A model generated the notes under the pieces. The model saw only the letters and a list, made by a program, of their open reading frames with translations, did no database searches and was not told where the DNA came from. Position numbers and translations under genes: made by a program. Positions 3,414 through 19,781 of a stretch of DNA of 44,586 bases are shown piece after piece. Source of the DNA: a virus; IMG/VR virus record IMGVR_UViG_3300028920_000121, positions 1 through 44,586 of that record; one strand, written 5' to 3'. The stretch's first letter is position 1, and each line of letters opens with the position of its first letter.

Positions 3414-3955
3414 AGATACTAGTTAATGAAGTACAAAGAATAAGGCGGGATCTTGTCACATCTTTGCCGTATCCCATACAACAACAAATAGAACACGAAC
3501 TCGAAGACTTCGGGTACGATCTTATTATTCATCATGGTCTAAGGCGACATGAGGTTGGATATCTAACTACCTGCATGAATAATGCCAAGAAAAGGTTCAT
3601 AGGTAATTTAGGTAAGAGATTGCAGAGGTATAAGCATATAGCTGAAGAGTTTTATTATGATCCAGGTTCTGATAGTGACGATGGCAATACAACTCTTGAC
3701 AAGTTATATATGTCTACCGCAGGTCTTAGTCAGCACGATAAGGAATTCGCTTATGTGATGGTCGTTATGATAGTTAGAGGGTCCACGGCCCCGATTAAAG
3801 ACACCGCCGCTGAAATCGGCGTTTCCCGAATGACAGTAAATAAATTCTTAAGGAGATGGAAGGCAGCTTATGCCAAAGAAGTTAACAGACAGGTGCCAGA
3901 AGTGCGATCTCTCAACCACTTGCAAAAGCTCTTGCGTTGGAGGGCGGGGAAGTGA
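3383..3955 (+). CDS. HTH DNA-binding protein (190 aa), possible regulator
   Basis: ATG at 3383 overlaps the preceding gene by 31 bases and has only a weak ribosome site. Residues about 130-165 (IKDTAAEIGVSRMTVNKFLR) form a clear helix-turn-helix with a basic end. The N-terminal 120 residues are helical and charged, with an Asp-rich patch (DPGSDSDDGN). It could be a transcription or replication regulator. A sigma region-4-like origin is conceivable but the promoter-core-binding part is not evident. The 3' end overlaps the start of the polymerase gene by 86 bases. Confidence 0.6.
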   Translation: MPLEQTSKDIKILVNEVQRIRRDLVTSLPYPIQQQIEHELEDFGYDLIIHHGLRRHEVGYLTTCMNNAKKRFIGNLGKRLQRYKHIAEEFYYDPGSDSDDGNTTLDKLYMSTAGLSQHDKEFAYVMVVMIVRGSTAPIKDTAAEIGVSRMTVNKFLRRWKAAYAKEVNRQVPEVRSLNHLQKLLRWRAGK

Positions 3956-6161
3956 GCGACCAAAAGTCATCTTCATCGGGCAAGCTCCAGGTAAAGACGA
4001 GGATGAACGAAATACCTGCTTTGTCGGAGATGCAGGCAAACTTCTTATCGAGACACTTTCAAAAAATGGTATTGGAAACTATCGTCTCACAAATACAGTC
4101 AGATGCTTTCCGCCTAATGATAAAAAACCTCTTAAAAGACAGATACAAGCTTGCCTCCCTTATCTCGAAGCAGAGTTAGAAAGGTATCCCTGTGAAATCA
4201 TTGTTCCACTTGGCGGATTGGCATTGGACGTTTTCTTCCCTGGGGCAAAAGTTACCGAAATGGCTGGTCTTGCGCATAAAGTTGATGGCGGTGTCGTATT
4301 CCCTATTCTTCATCCAAATGCAGTATTACACAGACCACAAAACAGGAGAGACTTCGAGTTACAAGTCAAAGCTCTTGCATCTTATCTATCTGGCGATGTC
4401 AAAGCTCGCAGAATTAAACCCAATTACAAAGATTTAACGAATTCTGCGTTTTTTAGGGGTAATAGGGGTGCAAACATCTTGTGGGCGTACGATTTCGAAA
4501 CCACTGGATTAGATCCTAAAAAAGACGAATTGAGGTGTGTATCTTTTGCTGATAGGCCAAATACAGCACAATACACATCTAAGTGTCATGAAATAAACTG
4601 CCCTGAGTTTTGGACCAGGAACAGGTTTATAGCTCATAATTCTAAATTCGAATCCCGTTTCACAAGGAGCAAGTATGGTGTTACCCCTAATATTGTCGGT
4701 GATACATTTATCGCTCATCATCTTCTTTTTGAGGATGAGTCACACCACCTTGACATCCTTGAGAGAATCTTTACGTCACTTGGAGGATCCAAAGATGAAT
4801 CTAACGATTGGCTTCGACGCAACAATAATGCCTGGGATAAAATACCTGCTGATATACTCATGCGCCGCAACTGTTCTGATAGCGATGCCACTTTGCGTAT
4901 TCATAATATTCTCTATCCTGAAATTTGTAAGCAGGGGCTAAAATACCTATATGAGAGTATAAGTGTGCCAGCGGCAACCGTGGTTGGTAAAATGGAAGAC
5001 TGTGGTATGTACGTTAATCCCAATACACTAAAGAAAATCTATACTGAAGAGGAAGCAAAGGCCGCATCCATCAAGAAGCAAATATGTGAAAGGTGGGGGA
5101 TAGACGATATAAACTTCCGATCTCCTAAACAGATGATTAAATTAGTATACGAAACCATGATGGCAGTTGGTTTATCTGGTAAGGTTGGAATGACGAAATC
5201 CGGTCAGCCTAGTACGGACTCTGATGTATTTGAGATAATGATGTCTAAACCGGAAAATGAGCGAATAAAGGACGATTTGCAATTGATACTTGATTGCAGA
5301 TCTGCACTATATAATTGTACGAAGATAGACGAAATATTTAAATGGAGGAGGGACGATGGAACAGTCTCGGCAGACAACAATGTTGCTTATACTCCTACGG
5401 GTCGTCTTACCTCTTCTCGGCCTAACCTTCAAAATTTACCTGTCGATGGTAGAGTAAAATTAGCTTTTGAATCACGTTGGGAAGGGGGTAATATCTGTGA
5501 AGCAGACTATGGACAACTTGAACTCAGACTTATTGGTTCTGAATCTCGGTGTAGGGATCTTATTGAAGCATATAAAGATGGGCGAGATATTCACCAAGAA
5601 ACAGCTGACAAGTTTAACATGGAACGTGTCGATGCTAAACGAGTTAATTTCGCTTGTGCTTACGGAGTCGGGCCTTCGACCCTATCCAGGGAGCTTAAAG
5701 TCGAATTTGAAGACGCAAGATTCTTCCTTGGAGAAAAGAACAAACAATGGTGGCAAATCAGTACGTGGCGGGAAATACAGCATAATAGGGCACGGGAGCA
5801 AGGGTATGTCACAAATAGATTTGGAAGAAGAAAGAGATTACCGAACATACTTAGCAAGGTAGATAAGGAAAGGTTCGCCGCTGAACGGGTGGCAGGTAAT
5901 TTTCCCATCCAATCATTGGGTGCTGATACCCTGATGCTTGCTATGGTTATAATGGACAGATACATTACGGAAATGAAACTCAAATCATTAATAATAAACC
6001 AAGTACACGATTCTATTATTTTGGACGTGTATCCAGGGGAAGAGGAGGTTATAAAGGAACTGATACCAAATGTGATGGTTAAAGAGATTATGGGATTGCA
6101 TGATTGGTATAAGATACCTCTCGTCGTTGATTGTAAAATCGCTAAAACATGGGGAGGCTAA
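3870..6161 (+). CDS. Uracil-DNA glycosylase - family A DNA polymerase fusion
   Basis: 763 residues, ATG after GAAGG. Residues 1-175 match family 4 (Fe-S) uracil-DNA glycosylase: C9/C12, G37-QAPG, TNTVRC79FPP, C95, and H148-PNA. The usual acidic residue in GEAPG is Gln38. From about residue 203 comes a 3'-5' exonuclease domain (YDFETTGLD with D208/E210; AHNSKFE; later SDSDATLR). The polymerase domain has motif A EADYGQLELR (D546), motif B KRVNFACAYG and motif C QVHDS (H713/D714). It is the likely replicase, working with the SSB, helicase and primase. A PurZ-like enzyme lies downstream, so it may be the DpoZ-type polymerase that copies aminoadenine DNA; this is inference. Confidence 0.9.
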   Translation: MPKKLTDRCQKCDLSTTCKSSCVGGRGSERPKVIFIGQAPGKDEDERNTCFVGDAGKLLIETLSKNGIGNYRLTNTVRCFPPNDKKPLKRQIQACLPYLEAELERYPCEIIVPLGGLALDVFFPGAKVTEMAGLAHKVDGGVVFPILHPNAVLHRPQNRRDFELQVKALASYLSGDVKARRIKPNYKDLTNSAFFRGNRGANILWAYDFETTGLDPKKDELRCVSFADRPNTAQYTSKCHEINCPEFWTRNRFIAHNSKFESRFTRSKYGVTPNIVGDTFIAHHLLFEDESHHLDILERIFTSLGGSKDESNDWLRRNNNAWDKIPADILMRRNCSDSDATLRIHNILYPEICKQGLKYLYESISVPAATVVGKMEDCGMYVNPNTLKKIYTEEEAKAASIKKQICERWGIDDINFRSPKQMIKLVYETMMAVGLSGKVGMTKSGQPSTDSDVFEIMMSKPENERIKDDLQLILDCRSALYNCTKIDEIFKWRRDDGTVSADNNVAYTPTGRLTSSRPNLQNLPVDGRVKLAFESRWEGGNICEADYGQLELRLIGSESRCRDLIEAYKDGRDIHQETADKFNMERVDAKRVNFACAYGVGPSTLSRELKVEFEDARFFLGEKNKQWWQISTWREIQHNRAREQGYVTNRFGRRKRLPNILSKVDKERFAAERVAGNFPIQSLGADTLMLAMVIMDRYITEMKLKSLIINQVHDSIILDVYPGEEEVIKELIPNVMVKEIMGLHDWYKIPLVVDCKIAKTWGG

Positions 6162-6473: not shown

Positions 6474-7445
6474 ATGGCTTTAAATCTGGCACGGTACAAG
6501 GCGAAGCATAAGGAAGCTTCGGAAACAGGTACCGGAGGGAGATCTCTTCGTCTCAAAAACGGCAAGAACTACCTCCGGATTTTCAAATTCCAGCACAAGG
6601 TGGTGGATCGGGATTTCGCAATGAAACTCTATAACCGCGGTGCTGAGGGTGCTCCCGCCGTTGGTGACGTAGTTGAGGAGATTTCCCGTCCATACTTCGC
6701 ACATTTCATGAAGGGCACGGCTCCGCAGAATTGCTACCTCAAAACGGCAAACTGCGATCATTGCCAAGAGGCTAATGAGTTGAAACGTAGCGGCGATGAG
6801 ATGGATAAGCGTTCGGGTCGTCAGCTTGGACGTTCGGAGCGGAATGCAATGAACGTCGTTGACATGAACAACCTGGAAGCTGGCATTCAACGATTTGATG
6901 CCTCCCGCCAACCCTGGGCCGGTATCCTTGCCCAATATATCAGTAAAGCTGAGGATGGGGCGCAGGATGATGATATCTTCGGATGCAACGGGCGTGATTT
7001 TGTCATTGATTATGACAAGAACGCTGACGTTAGCAAGATTTACACCGTTACCATTAGGGATAAAGAGCGGTGTGAAAAGCTGGATCCCAAATTCGAGGAT
7101 AAAGTGGTTGACCTATTTCGCAACCACGAACTCGATCCCGTCGATGCTCCTCCGGTTGGTGAAGAGGCACCTACCCCTAAGCAGGAAACTGCACGCAAAC
7201 CCGCTGACCCGCCTCCGCCACCTAAGGAGGAAGAACCTTCAAAAGATGATCCTAAGTTGAAGGATCTCAAGGATGAGAAAGCCCCTGGCGATCTTACCGG
7301 AAAGCTGGTATCTTTCAAGAATGATGGCAAGGACGTACAGGCTATGTGTGAATCACAGTCTGGTACGGTTCTAAAGGTCCGTGCAGATAACGGTGAGCTT
7401 TGGGAAGTGGATGTCAATGAACTTACTGGCTATCAGCTGAAATAA
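6474..7445 (+). CDS. Single-stranded DNA-binding protein, gp32-like with zinc site
   Basis: ATG follows AAGGAG. The 323-residue protein begins with a basic stretch (LARYKAKHKE) like the cooperativity region of T4 gp32, then an OB-fold-like core. Residues about 77-97 hold H-x9-C-x6-C-x2-C, equivalent in layout to the His-Cys3 zinc site of gp32. From about 220 there is a Pro/Glu/Lys-rich linker (KPADPPPPPKEEEP) and a separate beta-rich C-terminal domain (about residues 275-323) rather than the usual acidic tail. It would coat single strands at the fork and recruit polymerase and helicase. Confidence 0.75.
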   Translation: MALNLARYKAKHKEASETGTGGRSLRLKNGKNYLRIFKFQHKVVDRDFAMKLYNRGAEGAPAVGDVVEEISRPYFAHFMKGTAPQNCYLKTANCDHCQEANELKRSGDEMDKRSGRQLGRSERNAMNVVDMNNLEAGIQRFDASRQPWAGILAQYISKAEDGAQDDDIFGCNGRDFVIDYDKNADVSKIYTVTIRDKERCEKLDPKFEDKVVDLFRNHELDPVDAPPVGEEAPTPKQETARKPADPPPPPKEEEPSKDDPKLKDLKDEKAPGDLTGKLVSFKNDGKDVQAMCESQSGTVLKVRADNGELWEVDVNELTGYQLK

Positions 7446-7454
7446 GGAGACTCC

Positions 7455-8561
7455 ATGGATTATATTAAGAAGGGGAAGATCAACCTGATCATTGATGGTC
7501 AGTGGGGATCTACTGGAAAGGGCAAGCTAGCGGGATATATCGCGAAACGGGCATCGATAGATGTGGCGGTGTGTGATTTCCAGACGAATGCGGGACACAC
7601 GTTCGTTTGCGACGATGGCAAAGAGATTATGGTACAGCAGGTGCCATCGGCACTAATTAATCCAGGTTGCCAGATTTGTATTGCCCCCGCCGCCACAATC
7701 AACGTCGATACCCTGATGAAGGAGATTGAGAAGCATGATCTCTCTAAAAGAATCCACATCCACCCGCATGCCGGTGTCATTGAAGATATCGATACTGCGA
7801 ATGAGGCAAAAGGAGCAATGGTCCAGATTTCTTCGACTCAGAAAGGATGCGGCTCATCTCTATCCAGGAAAATCCGGCGTGAAGCGTCTCTTGCTTGTAA
7901 TTGTGACAGGTTACGGCCTTTTATTGCGGATACTTGCAAGATCGTACAGGATACACTATTTGCTGGAGGAACTGTACTTGGCGAAACTGCCCAAGGATTC
8001 GACTTATCCTTAAATCATGGAATCAAGTACCCATATACAACCTCCAGAGATGTAACGGTTGGCTCCTCTCTTAACAACTTCGGTGTGCCACCAATGTTCC
8101 TTGGTGAAGTGTGGGCCAGTTTAAGGACGTATCCGATTCGGGTTGGTAATGTGTTTGATAAGGATGGTAAGCAGATCGGTTGGTCCGGTCCCAACCATGT
8201 TGATCAGAATGAGATGACTTGGGACGAGATAACCAATTCGTCGGGTTGCCCACACCGCTTAGAGGAAATTACTACCGTGACCAAAAAGGTACGGCGGGTG
8301 TTCAATTTTTCGCTGGCACAGTTGGATCGGTTTATCACCTATAACGCACCGACTAAGTTGTTCATCAACTTTGTCAACTACCTGAATTGGGATGATCACA
8401 ATAAGATGTTCGGTAGTGAATTGTCCTCCATCACTAAGACGTGGGTACATCACGTTGAGGAATGGATGAATGAGTTCTGCTCTGAACGTCGTTTACCTAT
8501 TCCCAAGATTGCCTTATTGGGTACTGGTTCAAAAGATTCGTCAATGGTTGAGTTGGGGTAA
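7455..8561 (+). CDS. purZ: PurZ-like succinoaminodeoxyadenylate synthase (PurA family)
   Basis: 368 residues, ATG after AAGGAG. PurA-family motifs are plain: GQWGSTGKGK (residues 15-24), TNAGHT (44-49, with His48), GETAQGFDLSLNHG, YPYTTSRD, SLRTYPIRVGN, and GTGSKDSS near the end. Cellular adenylosuccinate synthetases read GDEGKG at the first motif, where the Asp is the catalytic base. Here it is Ser19. Replacement of this Asp is a hallmark of phage PurZ, which joins aspartate to dGMP on the way to 2-aminoadenine (Z) nucleotides; host PurB would then release fumarate. The protein is shorter than E. coli PurA, as for PurZ. Neighbours (kinase-pyrophosphatase fusion, family A polymerase) fit a Z-DNA pathway. 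A divergent PurA acting on IMP is the alternative. Confidence 0.85.
   Translation: MDYIKKGKINLIIDGQWGSTGKGKLAGYIAKRASIDVAVCDFQTNAGHTFVCDDGKEIMVQQVPSALINPGCQICIAPAATINVDTLMKEIEKHDLSKRIHIHPHAGVIEDIDTANEAKGAMVQISSTQKGCGSSLSRKIRREASLACNCDRLRPFIADTCKIVQDTLFAGGTVLGETAQGFDLSLNHGIKYPYTTSRDVTVGSSLNNFGVPPMFLGEVWASLRTYPIRVGNVFDKDGKQIGWSGPNHVDQNEMTWDEITNSSGCPHRLEEITTVTKKVRRVFNFSLAQLDRFITYNAPTKLFINFVNYLNWDDHNKMFGSELSSITKTWVHHVEEWMNEFCSERRLPIPKIALLGTGSKDSSMVELG
8546..8559 (+). repeat. 14-nt direct repeat, copy 1 (end of purZ)
   Basis: GGTTGAGTTGGGGT at the end of purZ recurs exactly at 8718-8731. In purZ it encodes the last residues Val-Glu-Leu-Gly before the TAA. In the second copy the same frame would end with TGA. 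See the finding on the intervening segment. Confidence 0.85.
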
Positions 8562-8853
8562 GAAAGGCGGAAATAGCGTTACAAGTAGCGTATAGGTTGA
8601 TCACCAGAGTACGCGGCTTTCCGTGGGCCTTATCACTGTTGTTTTAGGGGATCCGGCCAATTCCCTTCGATAGTGTGACCGCCAGACTCTTGTAACGCAC
8701 CCCACATTTTTAAATTTGGTTGAGTTGGGGTGATGTTGGTTGGAAGGTGTGCAAGTACCGTAAGTCTGTAAAACGCAGGGAAACGCCTTAAATGGGGGAG
8801 GGATACCTGACGATCCTGGCCTTTCAACCGACTTCTAACACAGCGGAGGTAAA
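8562..8853 (+). other. 292-bp gap with a long-range inverted repeat; possible structured RNA
   Basis: No convincing gene is seen. GCGTTACAAG (8576-8585) is the exact reverse complement of CTTGTAACGC (8689-8698), enclosing about 100 bases that contain smaller pairings (AGGGGA with TTCCCT near 8646-8666). The right part has a possible 21-codon reading frame starting at an ATG near 8792 whose TGA overlaps the start of the kinase gene, but support is weak. The segment could be an untranslated structured RNA, a regulatory leader for the kinase gene, or a small inserted element. Confidence 0.45.
8718..8731 (+). repeat. 14-nt direct repeat, copy 2
   Basis: Exact second copy of GGTTGAGTTGGGGT, 172 bases after the first, followed by TGA in the same relative frame. 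The two copies bracket the inverted repeat 8576-8585/8689-8698. Confidence 0.85.
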
Positions 8854-9825
8854 ATGAAATCAGTTATGTTCGTTACAGGTCGGCAGGGGTGTGGTAAAAC
8901 AACCTTGTGCCGATCTAAGAAGTACCATGTCTTGCCTGGGCAGGTACTCCGTAAGAAATTCGGAGATAAGTTCTTTACTTCCTGCATAAATCCAGCCGCT
9001 CCGCGTGAAACGGAGAAAGAGGTAAGGGAGATTATCACTGACGCAATACAAAAGACCCCAGAAGGTGAAGTTTTGTGGGTTGATGGTTTCCCACGTAATA
9101 CCACTCAGTCTATGTGGATACATGGATTAATAGTTAATGGCATCCATCCGCATATCGTATTTTTAACCTGCTTCGATTCAGTAAGGCGTGAACGCGGTAG
9201 GGTAAGGGATCTGAGTAAACCCGATGCGCAGGAACTATTTGATAAACGGGAGCAAACAGAAACTCAGCGTCTTTACGACGTGGTGATGGAGGTTCATCAC
9301 TATGGACTTACATGGTCAATTCTGGATAATACACCGGAAAATAAAAACCTTGTTGAGCACCCTGATCCTTTTAGTGGGGTTCATCTTGGCACTGATCTTA
9401 GGACCATCTTTAATAACCACATTGACCTCCTTAAAATAGGTGGTACATATGAAGCTATGGCTGATGCAGTAACTGATCCAGGTATGGAAGCGATGGATGA
9501 AACGATACCTGGGTCACCTAAAGCCACTTTCATCCGTAATCTTATTAATCATATCAAAATGGAGTGTAATGAACTTCTTGCCAAATTACCGGATAAATGT
9601 TGGCCAATTCCGGATTTGGCTGTTAAAGATGGCCCATTACGGGTAGAGCTTGTAGACGCATTTCACTTTATGTTATCTGCGGCTATGGTTCTTGGTATGG
9701 ATGCTGATTTCTTCGCTAAGTTATATGAAGAGAAACGCAAGGTAAACGTTAAACGTCAGACAGAGGGTTACGTAAAAACCCGACAAGGAGAGGACGATAC
9801 CAAACTTGGATATCGGAACGTATAA
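8854..9825 (+). CDS. Fused nucleoside monophosphate kinase - all-alpha NTP pyrophosphatase (MazZ candidate)
   Basis: 323 residues, ATG after GCGGAGG. Residues 1-about 185 are an adenylate-kinase-like P-loop domain: Walker A G9RQGCGKT, VDGFPRN (D77-R81) in the NMP-binding region, and an Arg-rich lid-like segment (RRERGRVRD). Residues about 211-310 are an all-alpha NTP pyrophosphatase of the dimeric dUTPase/MazG kind: E237-xx-E240, E265-xx-D268 followed by FHF, then K-xx-VN-xx-RQ-xx-GY. The likely reactions are dNTP to dNMP plus PPi, and phosphorylation of a dNMP. Beside purZ the natural reading is dGTP to dGMP (MazZ-like) and dZMP to dZDP. dUTP hydrolysis plus another kinase substrate is the alternative. 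Confidence 0.8.
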   Translation: MKSVMFVTGRQGCGKTTLCRSKKYHVLPGQVLRKKFGDKFFTSCINPAAPRETEKEVREIITDAIQKTPEGEVLWVDGFPRNTTQSMWIHGLIVNGIHPHIVFLTCFDSVRRERGRVRDLSKPDAQELFDKREQTETQRLYDVVMEVHHYGLTWSILDNTPENKNLVEHPDPFSGVHLGTDLRTIFNNHIDLLKIGGTYEAMADAVTDPGMEAMDETIPGSPKATFIRNLINHIKMECNELLAKLPDKCWPIPDLAVKDGPLRVELVDAFHFMLSAAMVLGMDADFFAKLYEEKRKVNVKRQTEGYVKTRQGEDDTKLGYRNV

Positions 9826-11077
9826 GTTTGGGAGTGACTTTCAGACAGCGATACTTAATTGTATCATAAAAGACCGTAAATTTCTTGAGCAGTACCGCGA
9901 TTCAGTAAGTCCGGAGTATTTCGGGGACGAATGTTATCGCCACGTTTGCTCTGTAATTTTGAGGTTGTTTGATAAATTCAATGTCACTCCATCAAAAGAG
10001 ACAATTGTTGAGGAGATAAAATCTCAGGGGGGAGGAGAAGAAGTTGTTGATACAATTGATTACATTACATCTAAGCAGGTTCCTGACTCGAAGATTATTG
10101 AAAGTAAAGCAAGAACTTTCGCCAGAACTAAAGCGGTTAAGAACGCATTACTCGCTATTCAAAGCCAAATCAATGCGGACCAGACAGAGGATACCTTTAA
10201 GAACGTTGAGAGTCAATTTGCGAAGGCTATCAATGTCGGTACAGGGTACAGCACTGGCTATTCTTATACGGATAATGTGGTTGATAGGTTCCAAAACTAC
10301 GAGGAGAGAGATCCTGCAATACCAACCGGATTTAGGTCGATCGATAACAGGGTCGAAGGGGGACTACATTACAAAGAGTTAGGCATGATAATCGGAATGC
10401 CTGGGGGAGGTAAAACAACTGCCCTTATACACATGGGTAAGAACGCTCTAATGAACGGATTTAATGTCATACACTATAGCCTGGAGATGCGTGAACTTTT
10501 AGTTGCAAGGCGATATGATATGTCTATATCAGAAATGACAAAAGACGAATTGTTACAACTGAAACGTACAGCGGCAAAGCGGATATTTGATAAAGTGAAG
10601 GGTAAGTTACTTATACAAGAATACCCTGCTTGTTCAGCCACTACCGCTACCATAAGGAATCATATATCATTAAAAATACGGGAAGGATTTGTCCCCCATC
10701 TTATCATTGTAGATTACGACGATTTGGTACTGCCGACCCGACAACTTGATGAGTCCCGCACGAATGTGAAACGCCTATATCGTGAGTTGGATGGCATAAC
10801 TAAGGAATTCTCTGTTGCTTTATGGACTGCCAGCCAAACAAATAAGAAGATCTTTGAGATGAGGGATGGAGAAGTAATTGATATGCAACATGCAACTGAA
10901 TCCCTGGAAGCGAAAGGTGGTACGCCCCATTTAATATTATCCATGAATCAGACCTTTAAGGAATATAGGGATGGATTTCTGCGTATGCATATGGTTAAGA
11001 ATCGGGAAGGTGAGCAACAGTTAACAGTAAATTGTGATATACAGCGAAATAAAATGTTAATGAGGGAGATAATTTGA
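9806..11077 (+). CDS. DnaB-like replicative helicase
   Basis: TTG start at 9806 lies inside the end of the kinase gene, with AGGAGAGG about 12 bases upstream; no ATG fits better. The 423-residue protein has a helical N-terminal domain (about 1-150), then a RecA-like motor: Walker A GMPGGGKT (near residue 195), a Walker B-like strand LIIVDYDDLV, and WTASQTNKK as a sensor motif, matching the DnaB/SF4 family. It would unwind the fork and partner with the separate TOPRIM primase at 13256-14101, unlike the fused primase-helicase of T7. Confidence 0.85.
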   Translation: MDIGTYKFGSDFQTAILNCIIKDRKFLEQYRDSVSPEYFGDECYRHVCSVILRLFDKFNVTPSKETIVEEIKSQGGGEEVVDTIDYITSKQVPDSKIIESKARTFARTKAVKNALLAIQSQINADQTEDTFKNVESQFAKAINVGTGYSTGYSYTDNVVDRFQNYEERDPAIPTGFRSIDNRVEGGLHYKELGMIIGMPGGGKTTALIHMGKNALMNGFNVIHYSLEMRELLVARRYDMSISEMTKDELLQLKRTAAKRIFDKVKGKLLIQEYPACSATTATIRNHISLKIREGFVPHLIIVDYDDLVLPTRQLDESRTNVKRLYRELDGITKEFSVALWTASQTNKKIFEMRDGEVIDMQHATESLEAKGGTPHLILSMNQTFKEYRDGFLRMHMVKNREGEQQLTVNCDIQRNKMLMREII

Positions 11078-11610: not shown

Positions 11611-12105
11611 ATGGCAAGGAAAAAGAAAGAATTGGATATACAAGAAAGATACGTCGTAGGGTGGGCAAAAGGTTACCGCCCAACGATCTGCCTTGATTTT
11701 GACGGTGTAATCCATGACCACAAGTATGTAAAGGATTACAGTACATTTTACCAACTTAGAAACAAATCAATACCTTTCGCTAAAGCTGCAATTAAAAAGT
11801 TGCACAAAGTCGGTTTCCGTCTTGTCATCATGTCTGTTCGTGAAGCTGTCCCTATACGTAAGTGGCTTTGTAAAAACAACCTGAATAAATATATACATGA
11901 AGTGAACGGTGATAGGGAGGATACAACATATGACATATTCAACGATAAATTTTGGGATCATAATCCTGACAACACAAGCATAAAACCGATAGCTAATATA
12001 TATATCGACGATAAAGATAGCTTTTGGTGCGGGAGTAAATTCAATTGGGTGATAATGATGAAAAGAATCCAGGACATGTTTCCTATGATGAATTGGAAAG
12101 CTTAG
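11611..12105 (+). CDS. HAD-superfamily phosphatase
   Basis: ATG after GGGATTTAGGG. The 164-residue protein has HAD motif I (ICLDFDGVIHD, about residues 26-36) with the two Asp residues, a motif II region (FRLVIMSVREAVPI, Ser), and the C-terminal acidic pair IYIDDKD of motif IV. Such proteins are 5'-nucleotidases or polynucleotide 3'-phosphatases. The substrate cannot be read from sequence. A role in removing unwanted dNMPs such as dAMP would fit the Z-DNA model but is speculative. Confidence 0.75.
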   Translation: MARKKKELDIQERYVVGWAKGYRPTICLDFDGVIHDHKYVKDYSTFYQLRNKSIPFAKAAIKKLHKVGFRLVIMSVREAVPIRKWLCKNNLNKYIHEVNGDREDTTYDIFNDKFWDHNPDNTSIKPIANIYIDDKDSFWCGSKFNWVIMMKRIQDMFPMMNWKA

Positions 12106-13266: not shown

Positions 13267-14101
13267 TATAGTGGATGTTCGCCCCAATGGGGAATTTCTT
13301 GCTCTTTGTGAGAAGTGCGGTGATTCAAAGGGTCACCTGTCTGTCAACCCCGTCAAAAAATGGTGTTACTGCTTTAAATGCGGATTCCATCGTCCGATGA
13401 CACGTGAGGAAGTCCGGACTATTGCCAATAGTGATATATCCATCAGCCCCCGCCCCTATTGTACGGACAGAGACGCTATAAAAGACAGTGCATTCCCGTT
13501 TATGCGTCCTATATGGCCACTACCAGATGCGATAATGGGAAGGAAGGTGGCAGAATACGCAGAGGGTAGAGGATTTGATATAAGGGAGGCACCAATTTAC
13601 TATTCACCTGACAAACCTTGGTACATGTTCTTTGTAATGAGGGGTGATGATGGTGAAATGGTGTATTGCCAGGGCAGAGCAATAAAAGAGGGTATGACAC
13701 CTAAATACTGGTGCCCCCCTGTCAGGACCAACGATTTTATTTGGACTCTGCAGGGGGGACCAGCTTACAACCAAATTGTGGTAACTGAAGGAATCATTGA
13801 CGCTTATTCTATTCAAGCAAAAAACAGACTAATCTTGTGCGTACTTGGATCTCACATTAAGTCAGGTCAGATGTTCGCAATAGCAAATAAAGTGCGAGAA
13901 TTTGAAGGCGAGCTAATCGTTATGCTGGACTCGGATATGCCTGAGGAAGCGTGGGAGATGGGAGTTCAGATTCGCCATCGGACATACGCTCCTGTGGTTC
14001 GGGTTGTTGATTGGGGCGAGACCGAGGGCGATCCAGATTCGATAGCTCCTGAATTGAGAGAACGCTTAATCGCTGAATCCATTCTCGTACCCGACCCTTA
14101 A
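13256..14101 (+). CDS. DNA primase (zinc finger plus TOPRIM domain)
   Basis: I give ATG 13256, which overlaps the previous gene by 11 bases; ATG 13226 in frame would add ten residues. Residues about 20-45 form a zinc-binding domain (CEKCGDSKG ... CYCFKCG) as in DnaG/T7-type primases. The TOPRIM motifs follow: VVTEGIIDAYSI (catalytic Glu) and IVMLDSDMPEEA (DxD). Between them is a beta-rich region (WYMFFVMRGDDGEMVYCQGRA) typical of these enzymes. It would make RNA primers for the fork together with the helicase. The last 182 bases are overlapped on the opposite strand by the sigma-like gene. Confidence 0.82.
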   Translation: MTLNIVDVRPNGEFLALCEKCGDSKGHLSVNPVKKWCYCFKCGFHRPMTREEVRTIANSDISISPRPYCTDRDAIKDSAFPFMRPIWPLPDAIMGRKVAEYAEGRGFDIREAPIYYSPDKPWYMFFVMRGDDGEMVYCQGRAIKEGMTPKYWCPPVRTNDFIWTLQGGPAYNQIVVTEGIIDAYSIQAKNRLILCVLGSHIKSGQMFAIANKVREFEGELIVMLDSDMPEEAWEMGVQIRHRTYAPVVRVVDWGETEGDPDSIAPELRERLIAESILVPDP

Positions 14102-14591
14102 TCCTGGAGATGGTAGCTTTTGATTCATTGGGTAGAACATGACGGTCGAGCGGGGACTGAGATCTTGGATCTAACCCGTCTAACTCCATCTCGTCAAGTG
14201 TCTGTTGTGACGGCTTTAACTTCTCTTGAACAAAAATACGCTCACGTGAGTCTAGTTTTGTTAGTAACACAGCAAGCAGCTCTCGACTTAAAGCAATTCC
14301 AAGAGGGGAGTCGAACTTAGATGTGGCGGGGAAATCATCGGGCATCCGCATTATTGTTCGGTCTTGTAATACTTCTCGCTTCTGTAATGTGTTTATACGA
14401 TTGGATATACAGCGACCGAGAATTTTTACTACCTGATCCTCTGGAAGATGACTGTATCGGTCGAAACGCATGGTTGCTTGAAGCAAACCCTCCTGCGCCC
14501 ACTCTTTGGCAACCTCAGGGTCACGTTCCTTCTTGCGTGCCAGGGCAAAAGCCCCATCGATTAGCTTAGCTATCACTTTACCTTTATCCAT
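13920..14591 (-). CDS. Sigma-factor-like protein, convergent overlap with primase
   Basis: ATG at 14591 has a strong GGAGGTAAGATAAA leader. Residues about 22-75 (KERDPEVAKEWAQEGLLQATMRF to LGRCISNRINTLQKRE) resemble sigma-70 region 2, and about 100-178 (LLAVLLTKLDSRERIFV ... SKATISRIKGRVREWIQRL) resemble region 4. The last 45 residues are Pro/Ser-rich and probably disordered. It is the last gene of the minus-strand operon and could redirect host RNA polymerase to phage promoters. The C-terminal 60 residues lie opposite the end of the primase gene. No close relative was identified; an unrelated helical protein is possible. Confidence 0.6.
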   Translation of the reverse strand: MDKGKVIAKLIDGAFALARKKERDPEVAKEWAQEGLLQATMRFDRYSHLPEDQVVKILGRCISNRINTLQKREVLQDRTIMRMPDDFPATSKFDSPLGIALSRELLAVLLTKLDSRERIFVQEKLKPSQQTLDEMELDGLDPRSQSPLDRHVLPNESKATISRIKGRVREWIQRLSVLSIQELSNLDRPRSRPNQQPEPQERMSDGESELPSPTLPQAYPSPA

Positions 14592-14592
14592 T

Positions 14593-14676
14593 TTATCTTA
14601 CCTCCAGTATCAGCACCAGCAAGGCACCGAGTATAAGTATTCCATTGACCAGGATCCTTGGTATCATATTTTTCAT
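14593..14676 (-). CDS. Tiny single-span membrane peptide (27 aa)
   Basis: ATG at 14676 overlaps the preceding gene's TGA (ATGA) and follows AAGGAAG. The product MKNMIPRILVNGILILGALL continues into VLILEVR, that is one transmembrane helix of about 17 residues with a short basic N-terminus. It sits between two regulatory-operon genes. Possible roles are membrane anchoring, antiholin or superinfection functions, none testable from sequence. Confidence 0.5.
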   Translation of the reverse strand: MKNMIPRILVNGILILGALLVLILEVR

Positions 14677-15161
14677 ATCTGCTTCCTTAGTAGGGCGTGA
14701 CGGAGCATGTTACCCGCTCTCATGCGAATTATGCCCCTGTTTACCTTTCCAGTCTCCACATCATAGACCAAGCGCTGGATTTGTTCCTCTTTACAACCTG
14801 AACTTATGAGGATCTCTTCAAGGTCTTCAATGGTGTTATAAGCGGATAAGAGTTTAGATACATCGTCTTTAACAGAGTGTTTGCTCACTTTCACCGTGTC
14901 TATGGTGTTGAGCATGTTCTCGATATTGACTAAAACGTGTGTATCGTCCTCTTTCTCCTTGACCATGCGATCAAGTTCACCAGTGGAGTTGAGGTGACAG
15001 GCTGTGTCCAGTGTAAGACATAAGCCTTTAGCCTGTTCCCTTATACCACGAATCTGAGATAAGTTTAGATCCCACTTCGCCATAAGATCAGCTTCGATCT
15101 TTGTCGGCGTGTTGGATGTATCAGGGGGTTCGGATTTCCCCCGGTAAGGTAATCTGACCAT
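14673..15161 (-). CDS. Hypothetical helical protein (162 aa)
   Basis: ATG at 15161 is preceded by GAGGAG. After a short variable N-terminus, the protein is almost wholly helical and charged, with a coiled-coil-like middle (GELDRMVKEKEDDTHVLVNIENML) and a basic C-terminus (RMRAGNMLRHALLRKQ). No domain recognised. It overlaps the flanking genes, so it is within the minus-strand operon. Confidence 0.62.
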   Translation of the reverse strand: MVRLPYRGKSEPPDTSNTPTKIEADLMAKWDLNLSQIRGIREQAKGLCLTLDTACHLNSTGELDRMVKEKEDDTHVLVNIENMLNTIDTVKVSKHSVKDDVSKLLSAYNTIEDLEEILISSGCKEEQIQRLVYDVETGKVNRGIIRMRAGNMLRHALLRKQI

Positions 15162-15327
15162 TGCTTAGCGGCTCCTCTATTTGAATTCGGATCTCCACCA
15201 TCTTACCTGTGGAGTCCTCTTTGGCAAGTCCCACGAATGGGGTTCTGATTTCGAATAAGCGGTATGCCTCCATCTGGTTAAGGATGATGGCAACTTCTTT
15301 AGTTCCTTTATGATGTGCAAGTCTCAT
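15121..15327 (-). CDS. Small hypothetical protein (68 aa)
   Basis: ATG at 15327 is chosen because the longer frame upstream runs into the stem of a terminator-like hairpin and reads as low-complexity Arg-rich sequence. No clear ribosome site is visible. The product is soluble and mixed alpha/beta (EVAIILNQMEAYRLFEI, then MVEIRIQIEE). It ends 41 bases inside the next gene. Function unknown. Confidence 0.5.
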   Translation of the reverse strand: MRLAHHKGTKEVAIILNQMEAYRLFEIRTPFVGLAKEDSTGKMVEIRIQIEEPLSNGQITLPGEIRTP

Positions 15328-15378
15328 AATATAAAAAGTGGGGGACCGGATTTCGGGGGTTGGTGTACCATCCGGTCC
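15328..15378 (-). terminator. Terminator or attenuator inside the minus-strand operon
   Basis: Reading the minus strand, GGACCGGAT (15378-15370) pairs exactly with ATCCGGTCC (15351-15343) across an 18-base loop and is followed by CCCAC then five Ts and an AT-rich stretch. It lies between the zinc-ribbon gene and a weakly led small gene, so it may partly stop transcription and lower expression of the sigma-like end of the operon. Confidence 0.6.
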
Positions 15379-15394
15379 GGCCCCCCGTTGGCCG

Positions 15395-15814
15395 CTAAGC
15401 CGATTTTGCTTCCGCCGCAGGAGCTTCAGCCGGTTGCGTCTTGGCCGCTTCAGCCGCTTCCTTCTTGGCGGCATTCGCGTCACGCTTGGCCTGACGTTTC
15501 TTCTTGGAGCAGTTCAGGCAGGTTTTGACCTGGAACAGATCGGAAGTGTAGACCTCGCGATCTTCGTTGTCACACTCGATACATTTGATCTTGGCCTTCT
15601 GCTTGTTGGCCGAGGGATCGAACACCAGGGAACCGGGGATAAAGTGAGGATATTTGTCCTTGTAGTACTCCTCGGTTTTCTTGGCCCGTTTGGGCGGACC
15701 CTTTTTCTCCTTGGGTTCGGCGGGAGCTTCGGCGGCTTTGGCCTCCGCGCGTTTCTCGACTTCGGCATTCGCCCGTTCGTCGAAGTTAACTTTCTTTTTG
15801 ATATTGACGGCCAT
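15395..15814 (-). CDS. Zinc-ribbon protein with Ala/Lys-rich tails, copy 1 (139 aa)
   Basis: ATG at 15814 has AAAGGAGGG upstream, better than the earlier in-frame ATG at 15880. The first 55 residues are Ala/Glu/Lys/Pro-rich and disordered. Residues about 75-105 hold C-x2-C ... C-x2-C (IKCIECDNED, then KTCLNCSKKK). The end is an Ala/Lys/Glu helix resembling histone-like tails. It shares the ribbon and the KR-A-KK-AAE tail with the gene at 18471-18827. Probably nucleic-acid or polymerase binding; target unknown. Confidence 0.7.
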   Translation of the reverse strand: MAVNIKKKVNFDERANAEVEKRAEAKAAEAPAEPKEKKGPPKRAKKTEEYYKDKYPHFIPGSLVFDPSANKQKAKIKCIECDNEDREVYTSDLFQVKTCLNCSKKKRQAKRDANAAKKEAAEAAKTQPAEAPAAEAKSA

Positions 15815-15926
15815 TTGGCCCTCCTTTGGTAAGGGTGGAATGGCGTTACTTCGCCACTTGATCATTGGTTTTTCCATCATCGTCTACTCATAATAACCCG
15901 CAATTGCCGTGCCAGTTTCATCAGAA

Positions 15927-16091
15927 TTAAGAATCTGCATCAATCCTTCTGGCGGCATCATCCAAGTGCATAGCTACTTTAAGCCATCTGTCGCTATTAC
16001 CAAGAATGCTCTTGGCGTAGCAAAGTCTTATTACCTCTTCAAGTACGGAGGTAACGCCTTCATCGTCGATCATTTCTTCAATTCTGGACAT
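15927..16091 (-). CDS. Small phage protein (54 aa), paralogue of 16689-16904
   Basis: ATG at 16091 follows GGGAGAGG and overlaps the previous gene. The product begins MSRIEEMIDDEGVTSVLEEV, then RLCYAKS and a Trp-containing helix. The 'MIDD-G...L...I..-C..K' pattern recurs in the gene at 16689-16904 (KMIDDRGLSKLL), so the two are paralogues. Small helical proteins of this kind are common in phage early operons; function unknown. The 112 bases beyond its stop contain no convincing gene. Confidence 0.6.
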   Translation of the reverse strand: MSRIEEMIDDEGVTSVLEEVIRLCYAKSILGNSDRWLKVAMHLDDAARRIDADS

Positions 16092-16321
16092 AACCTCTCC
16101 CTTAAAATGTTCAACGCTTTTGCGTGGTGGTAGTTAAACTTTCGACACGCATCCATGTGTTTGCCACTTGAATTCATGCTAATCTTCCAATGCAACATCT
16201 CACCTATTTCATAGCCCATATAACCTTCGAAATAGTAAAGCCATATGACGACCTTCTCAAGATCTGGAAGGCCGTTTAAAGCTTCACGTAATTTTACCCT
16301 TGTGTGGGCACCAATCTGCAT
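16070..16321 (-). CDS. Sigma region 4-like HTH protein (83 aa)
   Basis: ATG at 16321, without a clear ribosome site, overlaps the preceding gene by 38 bases. Residues about 10-75 follow the pattern of sigma-70 region 4: 'REALNGLPDLEKVVIWLYYFEG' type helix, then YEIGEMLHW as the first HTH helix and HHAKALNILRERL as the recognition and closing helices. Region 2 is missing, so alone it would not be a complete sigma. It may bind promoter DNA or core polymerase as an appropriator, or partner with the protein at 13920-14591. Confidence 0.6.
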   Translation of the reverse strand: MQIGAHTRVKLREALNGLPDLEKVVIWLYYFEGYMGYEIGEMLHWKISMNSSGKHMDACRKFNYHHAKALNILRERLCPELKK

Positions 16322-16481
16322 GTTCTATTGGGTAAGACACTGGCACAAAGCCATCTCCGCGACGGTCAACGGAAGTACGGCAAACTCTGCACCTGTGCCA
16401 CTTGTACCGATAAGTTCCATGATATTTTCTCCTCAAAGTGGCTGTTTCCAGCCAAGGGCGAGGGATGGTTCGTTCAGACAA
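16284..16481 (-). CDS. Small basic zinc-binding protein (65 aa)
   Basis: TTG at 16481 is supported by AGGAGG with an eight-base spacer. The product is basic (about a quarter Arg/Lys/His) and has C-x2-C (CRVC) and later H-x3-C-x-H (EHADWCPH), a likely zinc site. Function unknown; probably DNA, RNA or protein binding. Confidence 0.6.
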   Translation of the reverse strand: MSERTIPRPWLETATLRRKYHGTYRYKWHRCRVCRTSVDRRGDGFVPVSYPIEHADWCPHKGKIT

Positions 16482-16493
16482 GTCTTGTACCTC

Positions 16494-16679
16494 CTATTCT
16501 TCATAACTATCGCAGTAAGGACAGCTTTCACAATCGGCAAGCACGATGTATTCGTGCGTTCGGCCTGCGGAGTCTCTTCCTCGTATGCATGTCGTCTTCA
16601 TGTCCAACCATGCGGCACAGGCTGGGTTTGGGCAGTCGTCTGTCTCTTTTCCACACATGTTCACTAATGGTCTGGTCAT
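16494..16679 (-). CDS. Small Cys-rich protein (61 aa)
   Basis: ATG has AAGGAGGAAG upstream. Seven Cys in 61 residues include C-x4-C (CPNPAC), a lone Cys after MKTT, and CESCPYC at the end, consistent with one or two zinc sites. The GRTHEYIVLADCESC segment resembles a beta strand running into a zinc knuckle. No family recognised. Confidence 0.6.
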   Translation of the reverse strand: MTRPLVNMCGKETDDCPNPACAAWLDMKTTCIRGRDSAGRTHEYIVLADCESCPYCDSYEE

Positions 16680-16688
16680 TCTTCCTCC

Positions 16689-16904
16689 TTAAGAAGGTTC
16701 ACTGACGGATTCGGAGCATTCTTGAATTTTAGTTCCGTTTTCCCCCCAAAGTTCAGCAAGGTCATAATCTTGCCAGTTAACGGCTATGTGATCTGACTTT
16801 TCACAGCAGATTTGAGCGATGTCACCGAGCAGTTTTGATAGACCTCGATCATCGATCATCTTCTCCAAGTCTTGAGCGTACTTGGTTTCCTTTTCACTAT
16901 CCAT
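16689..16904 (-). CDS. Small phage protein (71 aa), paralogue of 15927-16091
   Basis: ATG has AAGGAGGAAG upstream. The segment KMIDDRGLSKLLGDIAQICC followed by 'EKSDHI...NWQD...A..W' matches a type of small protein often seen in phage early operons, and the shorter gene at 15927-16091 shares its first half. Helical and acidic; no enzymatic motif. Function unknown. Confidence 0.62.
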   Translation of the reverse strand: MDSEKETKYAQDLEKMIDDRGLSKLLGDIAQICCEKSDHIAVNWQDYDLAELWGENGTKIQECSESVSEPS

Positions 16905-17166
16905 TAGCTTCCTCCTTTGGGGTTATGATTGATAAAGAGGTTTTATTCATCTCGTCATTGGCCTTGAGAGTTTCCTCAAAATCCCGGTAAGCCTTGTCAC
17001 TATCGTTGGCGTACTTTGCTGCAGCAACACCTTCCCAACCGCACCACAAAAGTTCACGTGCTGTGCGTTTTCCTTCCTCCAGAAAGTCGACGTTCATGCA
17101 GAGTACTCCGTCGTCTGTCCAGGGTTCACCGAATATCCGAATGTCGGTCTTGGTTCGTTCGATCAC
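16897..17166 (-). CDS. Hypothetical protein (89 aa)
   Basis: GTG at 17166 follows AAAGGAGGTCCAA, a near-ideal ribosome site. The first half is beta-like (TDIRIFGEPWTDDGVLCMNV), the second a charged helix. It overlaps both neighbours by a few bases. No recognised domain. Confidence 0.6.
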   Translation of the reverse strand: MIERTKTDIRIFGEPWTDDGVLCMNVDFLEEGKRTARELLWCGWEGVAAAKYANDSDKAYRDFEETLKANDEMNKTSLSIITPKEEANG

Positions 17167-17324
17167 TTGGACCTCCTTTCCTCCATCAATTTGTTCAATT
17201 CTTCAGTAGACATCTGGCTGTATTTTTTGTCGCACTCGCAAGGATCTTGTTCAGATTTCACCTCTGCTTCGTGCTCTGTGCGACCCTTCCACATTTTCCC
17301 GCATTCTTTACACATTAAAATCAT
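17163..17324 (-). CDS. Small zinc-ribbon protein (53 aa)
   Basis: ATG at 17324 has a perfect AAGGAGGTGAT site, so I reject the longer in-frame start at 17402. The protein has C-x2-C (MCKECGKMW) and C-x-C (PCECDKKY), the four ligands of a zinc ribbon, and a helical charged tail (STEELNKLMEERRS). Function unknown. Confidence 0.65.
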   Translation of the reverse strand: MILMCKECGKMWKGRTEHEAEVKSEQDPCECDKKYSQMSTEELNKLMEERRSK

Positions 17325-17357
17325 CTTTATCACCTCCTTCCAGTGGGCGGTCCCCAC

Positions 17358-17392
17358 AAAAAGAACAGCAAATCCCGTGCCAATCGGCTGTT
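17358..17392 (-). terminator. Possible terminator between small genes
   Basis: On the minus strand AACAGC (17392-17387) pairs with GCTGTT (17369-17364), with CCG/CGG pairing inside, followed by C and five Ts. It lies in the 74-base gap before the zinc-ribbon gene at 17163-17324. The stem is short, so termination is probably partial. Confidence 0.4.
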
Positions 17393-17398
17393 GTTCAG

Positions 17399-17737
17399 TC
17401 ACTCCTCCATTTCTTCTTGTTCAGCTTTCCAATCGTCGATAGTCCTGAAAGTCTCTTCACCGATTGCCAGCATCAAGATTGCACATCGCCACTCGTTGTG
17501 GTCGCCAAGCTCTGAAATGACGTACCGATCTTCGTGGAAGGCTGTCGCTTCCTCGTTGGTGGCGAAAACAATGTCGATCTCACGCCCTTCTCCGTTTTGC
17601 CACATTTTCAGGCCTTTGTCTGTCCGTTCGTCGACCCGCTTGATTGCTTCCTCAACTTTGGGAAGTTTGTCCTCGGTCAGGTCAAACTCAAGCCTGATCC
17701 CTTCGGCGGCTTTTCGCCGTTCTTCGTCTGTTCTCAC
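17399..17737 (-). CDS. Hypothetical acidic protein (112 aa)
   Basis: GTG at 17737 is chosen for its AAAGGAGG site, giving a start at VRTDEERRKAAE. The protein is acidic and helical, with a beta-like centre (REIDIVFATNEEATAFHE) and an acidic end (WKAEQEEMEE). No family recognised. It belongs to the G+C-rich part of the operon. Confidence 0.6.
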   Translation of the reverse strand: MRTDEERRKAAEGIRLEFDLTEDKLPKVEEAIKRVDERTDKGLKMWQNGEGREIDIVFATNEEATAFHEDRYVISELGDHNEWRCAILMLAIGEETFRTIDDWKAEQEEMEE

Positions 17738-17747
17738 TTTTCCTCCT

Positions 17748-17963
17748 TTACTCAAGGTCATTAACGTCAATCTGTATCACTTCGCCTTCGTCGTGCCAGC
17801 AGTCCCAACCTTCGTCAAGCTCGTACCCTTCGTTCTCCAGTTCTTTGTCAAGGTCTGCTTTCTTCTGCTGTGCCAGTTTCAGTTCGCCCACAAAGACAAC
17901 CTCAACACTGAAGCCTCTGTCCTCGCAGGTTTGTGTGGTCTTCGTCACAACGTACGTGTTCAC
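17748..17963 (-). CDS. Small acidic hypothetical protein (71 aa)
   Basis: GTG at 17963 follows AAGGAG. It begins with a strand (NTYVVTKTTQTCEDRGFSVE), then a charged helix and EGWDCWHDEGEVIQIDV. The order strand-helix-'EGW'-strand is also seen in the next gene upstream (17993-18235), which suggests distant paralogy. Function unknown. Confidence 0.58.
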   Translation of the reverse strand: MNTYVVTKTTQTCEDRGFSVEVVFVGELKLAQQKKADLDKELENEGYELDEGWDCWHDEGEVIQIDVNDLE

Positions 17964-17992
17964 TTTGGTTCTCCTTGGTTTGTGTGTTTGTC

Positions 17993-18235
17993 TCAGCCTT
18001 CTTCGCTTTTCACAACCTCGACCTTGGCTCCGTAGCCGCTGTTGAAATCAAACCACCACCCGTCTTCCGTGCAAGCCCAGCCTTCCTCGTTGGCGTACAG
18101 AGCCGAAACCACGCGGTCGGCCTTGTCGTCCGCTTCCTGTTCGCTTTTTGTCGCCAGCAGGACGCTGGTTTTGACGTTCCCTTCTTCGTTGGTCGTGTGC
18201 AAGACCACAAAGGTCGGTTTTTGTTCCTGTTCCAC
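17993..18235 (-). CDS. Small acidic hypothetical protein (80 aa)
   Basis: GTG at 18235 follows AAAGGAGGAAGC. It has the plan TFVVLHTTNEEGNVKTSVLL, then a helix with EQEADDKADRVVSALY, then NEEGWACTEDGWWFDF and a final strand AKVEVVKS. The plan resembles the 17748-17963 product. Function unknown. Confidence 0.58.
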   Translation of the reverse strand: MEQEQKPTFVVLHTTNEEGNVKTSVLLATKSEQEADDKADRVVSALYANEEGWACTEDGWWFDFNSGYGAKVEVVKSEEG

Positions 18236-18343
18236 GCTTCCTCCTTTTGGTTTGTCTGTGTTTCGAGCCTTGTTCGGGTGGGTCGTTTGCGCCTTCCTTG
18301 GCGCTTTCTCGCTTCCTTGCGGCTGGTGACCCGTTTTTTGTTT

Positions 18344-18394
18344 TTAGCGGCCTCTTCTTGGGCGTCTTTCGTACCGGCTTGACGGAAAGCTCAC
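18344..18394 (-). CDS. Possible tiny basic peptide (16 aa)
   Basis: GTG at 18394 overlaps the previous TGA and follows AAGGAGG. The product would be VSFPSSRYERRPRRGR, strongly basic. The strong ribosome site is the only support. The 108 bases between this stop and the next gene hold nothing I can support. Confidence 0.3.
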   Translation of the reverse strand: MSFPSSRYERRPRRGR

Positions 18395-18474
18395 GGCTCC
18401 TCCTTGGTTGGGGTGTTGTCGCTGTGCCCTTCCTTGGGCGTTTCTTCCTTCCTTGGTGTGGTGTTCTGGCTCAT
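18391..18474 (-). CDS. Possible small hydrophilic peptide (27 aa)
   Basis: ATG overlaps the preceding TGA (ATGA). The product is Pro/Thr/Glu/Lys-rich (PRKEETPKEGHSDNTPTKEE) and would be unstructured. Coding status rests on the overlap alone. Confidence 0.35.
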   Translation of the reverse strand: MSQNTTPRKEETPKEGHSDNTPTKEEP

Positions 18475-18827
18475 GCGGCCTTGGCTTGCTCGGCGGCTTC
18501 CTTCTCGGCCTTGCGCTGGGCGGCTTTCTCCTGCCGTTTGGCCTTCCTCCGTTCCTTGCGCTGTGCTTCGCAGCAGGCTTGGCAAAGGGCGGCTTGGTGG
18601 GCGTCGCTTGTGAAGCGTCGGTGCTCGACACCACAGGCAGGACAGACGACGGCAACGCTGACCTTGGTTGCGCTCTCTTCCCACCGCGCTGTGCCTTTGA
18701 CGACCCAAGCGTGCCGTTCGGCGTTCTGTTGGGCTTTCGCGACGGTCCGCTCGCGCTTTTCGGCTTTCTTCTGCTCGTCGGTCTTGGCGCTGGTCGCGCT
18801 CTCTGTCTGGTTGTTTGTCTGTGCCAC
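18471..18827 (-). CDS. Zinc-ribbon protein with Ala/Lys-rich tails, copy 2 (118 aa)
   Basis: GTG at 18827 follows AAAGGAG and starts AQTNNQTESATSAKT; the longer frame upstream is G+C-driven. A charged N-terminal helix (residues about 15-45) is followed by C-x2-C (VCPACGVEH) and C-x2-C (ALCQACCEAQ), then an Ala/Lys/Glu/Arg tail. The same plan is found in 15395-15814. As the first gene after the control region, it is probably the earliest expressed and may act on host transcription or nucleoid; that is inference. Confidence 0.65.
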   Translation of the reverse strand: MAQTNNQTESATSAKTDEQKKAEKRERTVAKAQQNAERHAWVVKGTARWEESATKVSVAVVCPACGVEHRRFTSDAHQAALCQACCEAQRKERRKAKRQEKAAQRKAEKEAAEQAKAA

Positions 18828-18943
18828 GGTTGGCTCCTTTCGTTTGGGCTGTTCGCCCGGTTCTGGTTGCGCCCCCGCTCCGCGCTCCCTGCGCGGCGTC
18901 TCGCGCCCCCACCCAGAAGAGAGCAAGAAGCGTGCCAACCGCG

Positions 18944-19768: not shown

Positions 19769-19781
19769 GGAGAGTGAAGAT

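Follow-up and report, generated by a model that had tools for sequence, protein, structure and literature searches.

In the available parts of the published accounts, three properties of Z phages are relevant here. The classical Z cluster comprises datZ and mazZ beside purZ, and frequent N-terminal fusions have been reported for MazZ-1 (PMC8342488). In PurZ0 phages DutZ, a relative of the trimeric dUTPases, hydrolyses dATP, dGTP and dUTP (PMC12884076). Host enzymes are credited with converting dZMP to dZDP and on to dZTP (PMC12884076). The available portions of the MazZ and DUF550 accounts mention no kinase fusion (PMC8342488, PMC12884076), and the word "kinase" is absent from the main texts of PMC12884076, PMC8065100 and PMC8515928. 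A search of the open-licence literature, a body from which the main subscription-journal PurZ papers are excluded, yielded no paper on a PurZ-linked kinase.

Here we describe a viral locus in which an NMP-kinase domain and an all-alpha pyrophosphohydrolase domain are joined in one chain beside purZ. The window, i.e., the whole stretch of DNA that was analysed, is an entire IMG/VR virus record of 44,586 bases. The following features of the window are considered below:

3870–6161, + strand: family A DNA polymerase with an N-terminal uracil-DNA-glycosylase (UDG) domain, a candidate DpoZ-like polymerase
6474–7445, + strand: SSB-like protein encoded immediately 5' of purZ (phrog_1192, a weak match with E 0.0049)
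7455–8561, + strand: purZ, 2-aminoadenylosuccinate synthetase (PF00709, 1.5e-33)
8854–9825, + strand: kinase-PPase fusion ORF, ATG start, 323 aa
8854–9366, + strand: NMP-kinase domain of the fusion, residues 1–171 (PF13238/PF13207, above cut-off)
9379–9825, + strand: dUTPase_2-type all-alpha NTP pyrophosphohydrolase (PPase) domain of the fusion, residues 176–323 (PF08761)
9806–11077, + strand: DnaB-type replicative helicase, directly 3' of the fusion

The PurZ motif QWGSTGKGK places Ser19 at the position of the catalytic Asp13 of PurA. This Ser is invariant in the purZ alignment; 85 of 91 PurZ ORFs fit the motif pattern, all 85 with Ser, and the other six lie outside the pattern. The best NCBIfam match is the PurZ model NF038379, whose 213.7 bits fall below a cut-off of 300 that is a naming threshold and not a biological trait. 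The genes of the window suggest that A is replaced by Z in the DNA of this phage. Profile searches of the record for MazG, HD and lyase families gave no match and, with neither an HD nor a MazG match in the record, the locus is not a classical Z cluster.

Shortly 3' of dnaB, at 11611–12105, a HAD-family protein (phrog_1238) is encoded that may act as a nucleotidase in the same pathway. Further downstream, over about 14000–20000, AT skew is negative and GC skew partly so; none of the ORFs tested there ahead of the terminase ORF (at 20002) matched a PHROG, and this region is possibly a block of minus-strand genes.

The fusion ORF sits inside an open frame of 328 residues, with GGAGG 4 nt 5' of its ATG. 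It starts 292 nt beyond the end of purZ, likewise on the + strand, and overlaps the start of the dnaB-type ORF at its 3' end. Pfam places a P-loop kinase (PF13238/PF13207) in the N-terminal half and dUTPase_2 (PF08761) in the C-terminal half, which bears out the earlier note on this DNA, where a kinase and an NTP pyrophosphatase had been read in one chain beside purZ. Among named phages, tblastn with the whole fusion gave matches to the dUTPase half only, among the matches listed, and none covered more than 80% of the query; the kinase half alone matched seven records, none with a meaningful E-value.

The 292-nt gap gave no Rfam match and a predicted RNA fold no better than that of shuffled sequences, and an RNA element at this place was rejected on these grounds. 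A promoter scan returned no more candidates than shuffled sequence. An exact 15-nt direct repeat (8545–8559 and 8717–8731) flanks a 172-nt segment at the purZ stop, and a perfect 10-nt inverted repeat (8576–8585 / 8689–8698), without Rfam match, lies inside it; the bracketed segment may be what is left of a small insertion.

The kinase half contains a P-loop (G9..T16), G29, R33, DGFPR (77–81) and Q85, and its matches to PF13238 (7.5e-7) and PF13207 (4.8e-6) are both above cut-off. The AF2 model of the full fusion has a pLDDT of 80.7, with residues 1–160 forming a block at pLDDT 79–97. This half gave a best VIA Z of 15.8 to adenylate kinase (5ycc/2c95) and 15.4 to UMP/CMP kinase (1uke), i.e., a tie, and the matches listed by Foldseek for the whole fusion model are all of kinase type. 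The P-loop, DG[FY]PR, the phosphate-binding Arg and the fold thus assign the domain to NMP kinases of the ADK/UMP-CMP type. It is neither an adenylate kinase proper, with both PF00406 ADK (E 0.005, 17.4 vs 26.8 bits) and the adk model TIGR01351 (18.2 vs a cut-off of 168) below cut-off, nor a thymidylate kinase, having DGFPR in place of the DR motif. Among NCBIfam models UMP-CMP kinase ranks above ADK (3.7e-6 vs 0.0015).

The motif DG[FY]PRxxxQ is nearly constant among the purZ-linked kinases, and all 43 kinase ORFs have its Gln (Gln85 in the window). It aligns with the Gln of ADK, which we take to have a role in adenine recognition; human UMP-CMP kinase has Asn there and yeast UMP kinase 1uky has Gln. 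Gln85 gives only a hint that the pocket may suit a 6-aminopurine such as Z and, since the yeast UMP kinase shares it, is no proof of a purine substrate. The adenylate kinase fold and motifs, together with the match of the invariant Gln to that of ADK, would equally be expected of a general adenylate-type kinase. Such an enzyme would act on AMP/dAMP or dGMP and balance purine mono- and diphosphates, e.g., by clearing AMP or by recycling dAMP made by the PPase. In a Z phage, however, rephosphorylation of dAMP would presumably undo the removal of dATP.

The C-terminal half belongs to the dUTPase_2 superfamily: its PF08761 score is above cut-off (2.3e-7, 31.7 vs 22.9 bits) and all superfamily residues are present (E237/E240, E265/D268, H271-F272 and K294/N298/R301). 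It matches phrog_18650 dUTPase in PHROGs (1.3e-9), and its profile matches solved dimeric dUTPases (best 1.4e-12). The AF2 model is all-alpha (pLDDT 75.8), with a Z of 8.8 to both DCTPP1 7mu5 and AF1178 4qgp. In Foldseek the PPase on its own yielded weak E-values (0.39 at best), the top enzymes being all-alpha NTP-PPases. Structure prediction thus agrees with the two halves proposed in the earlier note, the N-terminal one being ADK/UMP-CMP-like and the C-terminal one all-alpha. Its label "MazZ/dUTPase-like" survives for the dUTPase part and fails for the MazZ part: a PF03819 MazG-family search of the whole record gave no match (control positive in 12 of 14 genomes), the Pfam matches listed for the ORF include none to that family, and MazZ identity was rejected for this PF08761 domain. 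Nor is the domain a DutZ, which has the trimeric beta fold of PF00692, since the models are all-alpha and the match is to PF08761.

We aligned nine purZ-linked PPase domains, leaving out the divergent one of locus L052, with nine dUTPase_2 domains from records without a purZ match. The ExxE and ExxD metal ligands, already noticed from the letters alone, are kept in all 18 domains, as are the His-Phe pair and the K/N/R of motif V. The Gln of motif I is present in nine of nine domains from purZ-free records and in none of the nine purZ-linked ones, where His, Asn or Ile is found instead; in the window it is replaced by H189, so that the domain lacks the uracil-binding Gln expected of a strict dimeric dUTPase. 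In the available parts of the dUTPase literature, Q17 of motif I is named, with D21, as uracil-binding in a staphylococcal phage dUTPase (PMC6770826), and the His of motif IV is a proposed determinant of uracil specificity (PMC5608427). The latter is kept in the window. With the catalytic residues kept and the motif I Gln lost, the chemistry and deoxyribose selection look intact and base recognition appears partly altered.

The matches to PF08761 and to dimeric dUTPase profiles and the kept motif IV His raise the possibility that the fusion serves uracil avoidance and dTTP supply. It would then be a plain dUTPase joined to a dTMP/dUMP (or dCMP) kinase, without a role in Z synthesis and merely one nucleotide gene near purZ. 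In line with this, no PDB sequence matches the kinase better than yeast UMP kinase 1uky (E 0.0028), and in four of the inspected non-Z actinophages a dUTPase_2 gene adjoins one annotated as thymidylate kinase. However, the three actinophage kinases inspected have a DRS/DRH motif and no DGFPR, and therefore represent a different family from the purZ-linked kinase. Judged from the residues, a strict dUTPase with a dTMP/dUMP kinase is less likely because the motif I Gln is lost (in nine of nine purZ-linked domains) and the kinase is of the ADK/UMP-CMP type and not a thymidylate kinase.

The polymerases also bear on this question. Among loci with a PolA of more than 500 aa, the UDG-polymerase fusion seen in the window phage occurs in 13 of 18 that have the kinase cassette and in one of 29 that lack the kinase. 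UDG-bearing polymerases thus accompany the kinase cassette, and uracil control may therefore be part of the picture. By eye, the UDG domain of the window keeps a family-4-like stretch and that of L014 looks degenerate.

The structural neighbours point to one more set of targets. Foldseek also lists polynucleotide kinases, ranked below the ADK/UMP-CMP kinases, and the neighbours of the PPase include the house-cleaning enzymes DCTPP1 and DR2231. The kinase could accordingly act on nucleosides, oligonucleotide ends or dSMP, and the PPase could be a house-cleaning enzyme for odd dNTPs. We consider this very unlikely, as DG[FY]PR, the Gln that follows it and the conserved set of Arg residues are typical of NMP kinases, and the dUTPase_2 residues checked in motifs IV and V are complete.

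Scans of IMG/VR with the fusion or with purZ as single sequences found no relatives, while a scan with a purZ alignment succeeded, and the best 80 of 512 loci were used. Iterated HMMs from the two halves of the window protein were used to search every ORF in these loci. A kinase domain starting −30 to 150 nt from the purZ stop, on the same strand, was found in 38 of these best 80 of 512 loci. When purZ genes were joined at 90% identity, 16 of the 80 loci proved to be near-duplicates, and the kinase directly follows purZ in 29 of the remaining 64. These purZ-kinase loci span a GC content of 0.33–0.64 and a purZ identity to the window of 37–51%; in three more of the best 80 (L023, L089 and L090) the kinase lies elsewhere. 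The kinase is thus genetically linked to purZ. The suggestion of a new pathway arrangement made in the earlier note is upheld by this recurrence and by the absence of the arrangement from the published accounts considered here.

An all-alpha PPase was detected in ten of the best 80 of 512 purZ loci. It is fused to the kinase as in the window in eight of them (L011, L012, L013, L014, L015, L017, L022 and L052; seven after 90% purZ dereplication) and encoded separately from it in two (L021 and L025). The two-domain fusion beside purZ is confirmed as genuine: since it recurs in eight of 80 loci on other contigs, it does not stem from a frameshift or from misassembly. In L032 and L033, which form one 90% cluster, a trimeric dUTPase (PF00692, 1.1e-24) takes the place of the PPase as fusion partner of the kinase; dNTPases of two unrelated folds have therefore become attached to this kinase. 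The ORF that follows this fusion in L032 (12138–14321) resembles a ribonucleotide reductase by eye.

In L022 (11134–12684) the protein has 517 aa and, besides the kinase and the all-alpha PPase, a third domain in which the motifs YLAGP and SAGAHAE occur. This domain had no meaningful Pfam match; a profile alignment to DmtZ-like domains (E 5.5e-4, probability 30) provides only a lead that it may be a DmtZ-like NDT domain.

In the reverse direction, IMG/VR was searched with the kinase alignment. Of 91 pattern matches, 18 were confirmed and 73 were not relatives. All 18 confirmed relatives come from records containing purZ, which speaks against the uracil-avoidance reading; 15 of them are purZ loci already found. 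The other three are new large records (L114, L117 and L118) in which PurZ has the Ser and lies about 10–16 kb off. In L114 the kinase is directly followed by a DmtZ-like gene and a trimeric dUTPase; the same three genes are less tightly set in L118, and in L021 kinase, all-alpha PPase and DmtZ-like gene stand in a row.

A scan of bacterial and archaeal genome contigs (L128–L206) gave mostly chromosomal PurZ-like genes without the kinase cassette, with Ser at the Asp13 place in 76 of 80 loci by pattern. The chromosomal cluster recurs (e.g., L134 6007–8804, L149 5989–8003 and many of L128–L206), often with a long ORF just 5' of the PurZ-like gene, whose copy in L135 resembles, by eye, an exonuclease of the RNase-H type. 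Some clusters have a weak dUTPase/DCD-fold ORF after the PurZ-like gene, and that of L134 also has an adenylate-kinase-like gene (E 4e-11).

Gene combinations were counted in 65 dereplicated loci (the 64 and the window), over a span reaching from 2.5 kb upstream to 3 kb downstream of the purZ end:

kinase and all-alpha PPase: 10/65
kinase and trimeric dUTPase: 11/65, one also with a MazG-type match
kinase alone, no dNTPase found within 3 kb: 9/65
kinase, MazG-type and datZ: 1/65
MazG-type and datZ, without kinase: 13/65
datZ and trimeric dUTPase: 2/65
datZ alone: 2/65
trimeric dUTPase and MazG/DUF5664-type: 1/65
none of the genes sought: 16/65

The dNTPase slot after the kinase is thus filled by either the all-alpha or the trimeric type. 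The nine loci with the kinase and no dNTPase within 3 kb indicate that the kinase is independent of its fusion partner, and a kinase following purZ even where no dUTPase was detected within that distance again argues against uracil avoidance. Taking the evidence together, we consider the latter explanation unlikely, and weaker than that of a Z cassette.

Kinase and datZ/mazZ tend to replace each other. Among 74 representatives including named phages, 30 have only the kinase near purZ, 22 only datZ, one both and 21 neither (Fisher 6e-6 for the exclusion, with relatives counted as independent). L089 and L090 have the kinase and the classical cassette together. A whole-record search detected no kinase in 16 of 16 further records, of which 14 have a classical cassette or are PurZ0, one (L041) has datZ without a MazG-type match and one (L063) datZ with a trimeric dUTPase. 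In another set of 16 records, the same kinase query matched three: the positive control L038, the L023 record and, weakly and in part, the L072 record. The absence from these 16 datZ-type and PurZ0 records and the tight adjacency to purZ point to a step special to kinase-cassette phages, and a general adenylate-type kinase is in our opinion distinctly unlikely.

In a purZ tree built by a quick method, most kinase loci fall into one branch of 35 rows with modest support, and kinase presence requires at least six changes. The dnaB gene adjoins the kinase cassette in many related loci. The kinase loci are an alternative Z cassette, mostly without datZ and mazZ, and the reverse holds for datZ/mazZ loci.

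We propose, with a probability of about 0.52, that the fusion is a bifunctional enzyme of an alternative Z-DNA cassette replacing purZ-mazZ-datZ, predicted to convert dGTP to dGMP and dZMP to dZDP. The order of such a cassette would be purZ, NMP kinase, dNTP diphosphohydrolase and dnaB. The PPase, with its altered base pocket, would cleave dNTP to dNMP and pyrophosphate, most likely dGTP to dGMP to feed PurZ, and may also remove dATP and dUTP. A role in dGMP supply, and possibly in dATP removal, is assumed because DutZ-type dUTPases take dATP and dGTP and because the cassette loci mostly lack mazZ and datZ. PurZ would then use dGMP, Asp and ATP (or dATP) to form dSMP, which PurB of the host would turn into dZMP, the record having no lyase. 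The adenylate-kinase-type domain would convert dZMP to dZDP, and host NDK would complete dZTP. Both substrates, and any hand-over around PurZ, are what we infer from this arrangement.

More tentatively, the locus may represent a third kind of Z cassette, with a phage dZMP-specific kinase and both PurZ-flanking steps in one chain, in which kinase, dNTPases of two folds and a DmtZ-type transferase would form an interchangeable module. As the kinase comes after purZ in roughly half of the closest purZ loci from uncultivated phages, many phages may carry the dZMP kinase step themselves. The fusion kinase is a candidate for the dZMP kinase that is sought as a component for producing Z-DNA in other cells. 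The all-alpha enzyme joins the unrelated enzymes filling the dNTP-hydrolysis slot, a clear functional replacement.

Comparison with known systems revealed several degrees of likeness. With the ADK/UMP-CMP kinase family the window kinase shares the fold, the P-loop, DGFPR and the Gln at the ADK Gln position, but it is remote in sequence, with PF00406 below cut-off, and the [ST]GD of ADK is mostly replaced in purZ-linked kinases (PGQ, xGK and others). With the dimeric all-alpha dUTPases of T. cruzi, C. jejuni, Leishmania and staphylococcal phages the PPase shares PF08761, ExxE/ExxD, His-Phe and the K..N..R of motif V, whereas the purZ-linked domains have His, Asn or Ile for the motif I Gln, and that of the window is fused to a kinase and adjoins purZ. 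Bacillus phage vB_BpsS-140, which has the closest purZ among the named phages listed, has a gene for an adk-annotated kinase next to a dut gene; in that phage, however, the kinase and the trimeric dUTPase are encoded separately, some 9 kb away from purZ.

Going by the available parts of the corresponding accounts, S-2L MazZ and the DUF5664-DUF550 protein of Acinetobacter phages are likewise purZ neighbours of the all-alpha NTP-PPase superfamily expected to supply dGMP; they belong to the MazG/DUF550 Pfam family, whereas the window PPase is a dUTPase_2, and their clusters also have datZ (PMC8342488, PMC12884076). On the same footing, the DmtZ-DutZ fusion of Arthrobacter phage Wayne resembles the window protein in being a nucleotide enzyme of two domains encoded close to purZ of a Z phage, with a dNTP diphosphohydrolase of a dUTPase family as one half; that of Wayne also takes dATP and dGTP. 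The DutZ half of Wayne has a trimeric beta fold and an NDT enzyme as partner, whereas the window combines an all-alpha dUTPase_2 with an NMP kinase (PMC12884076).
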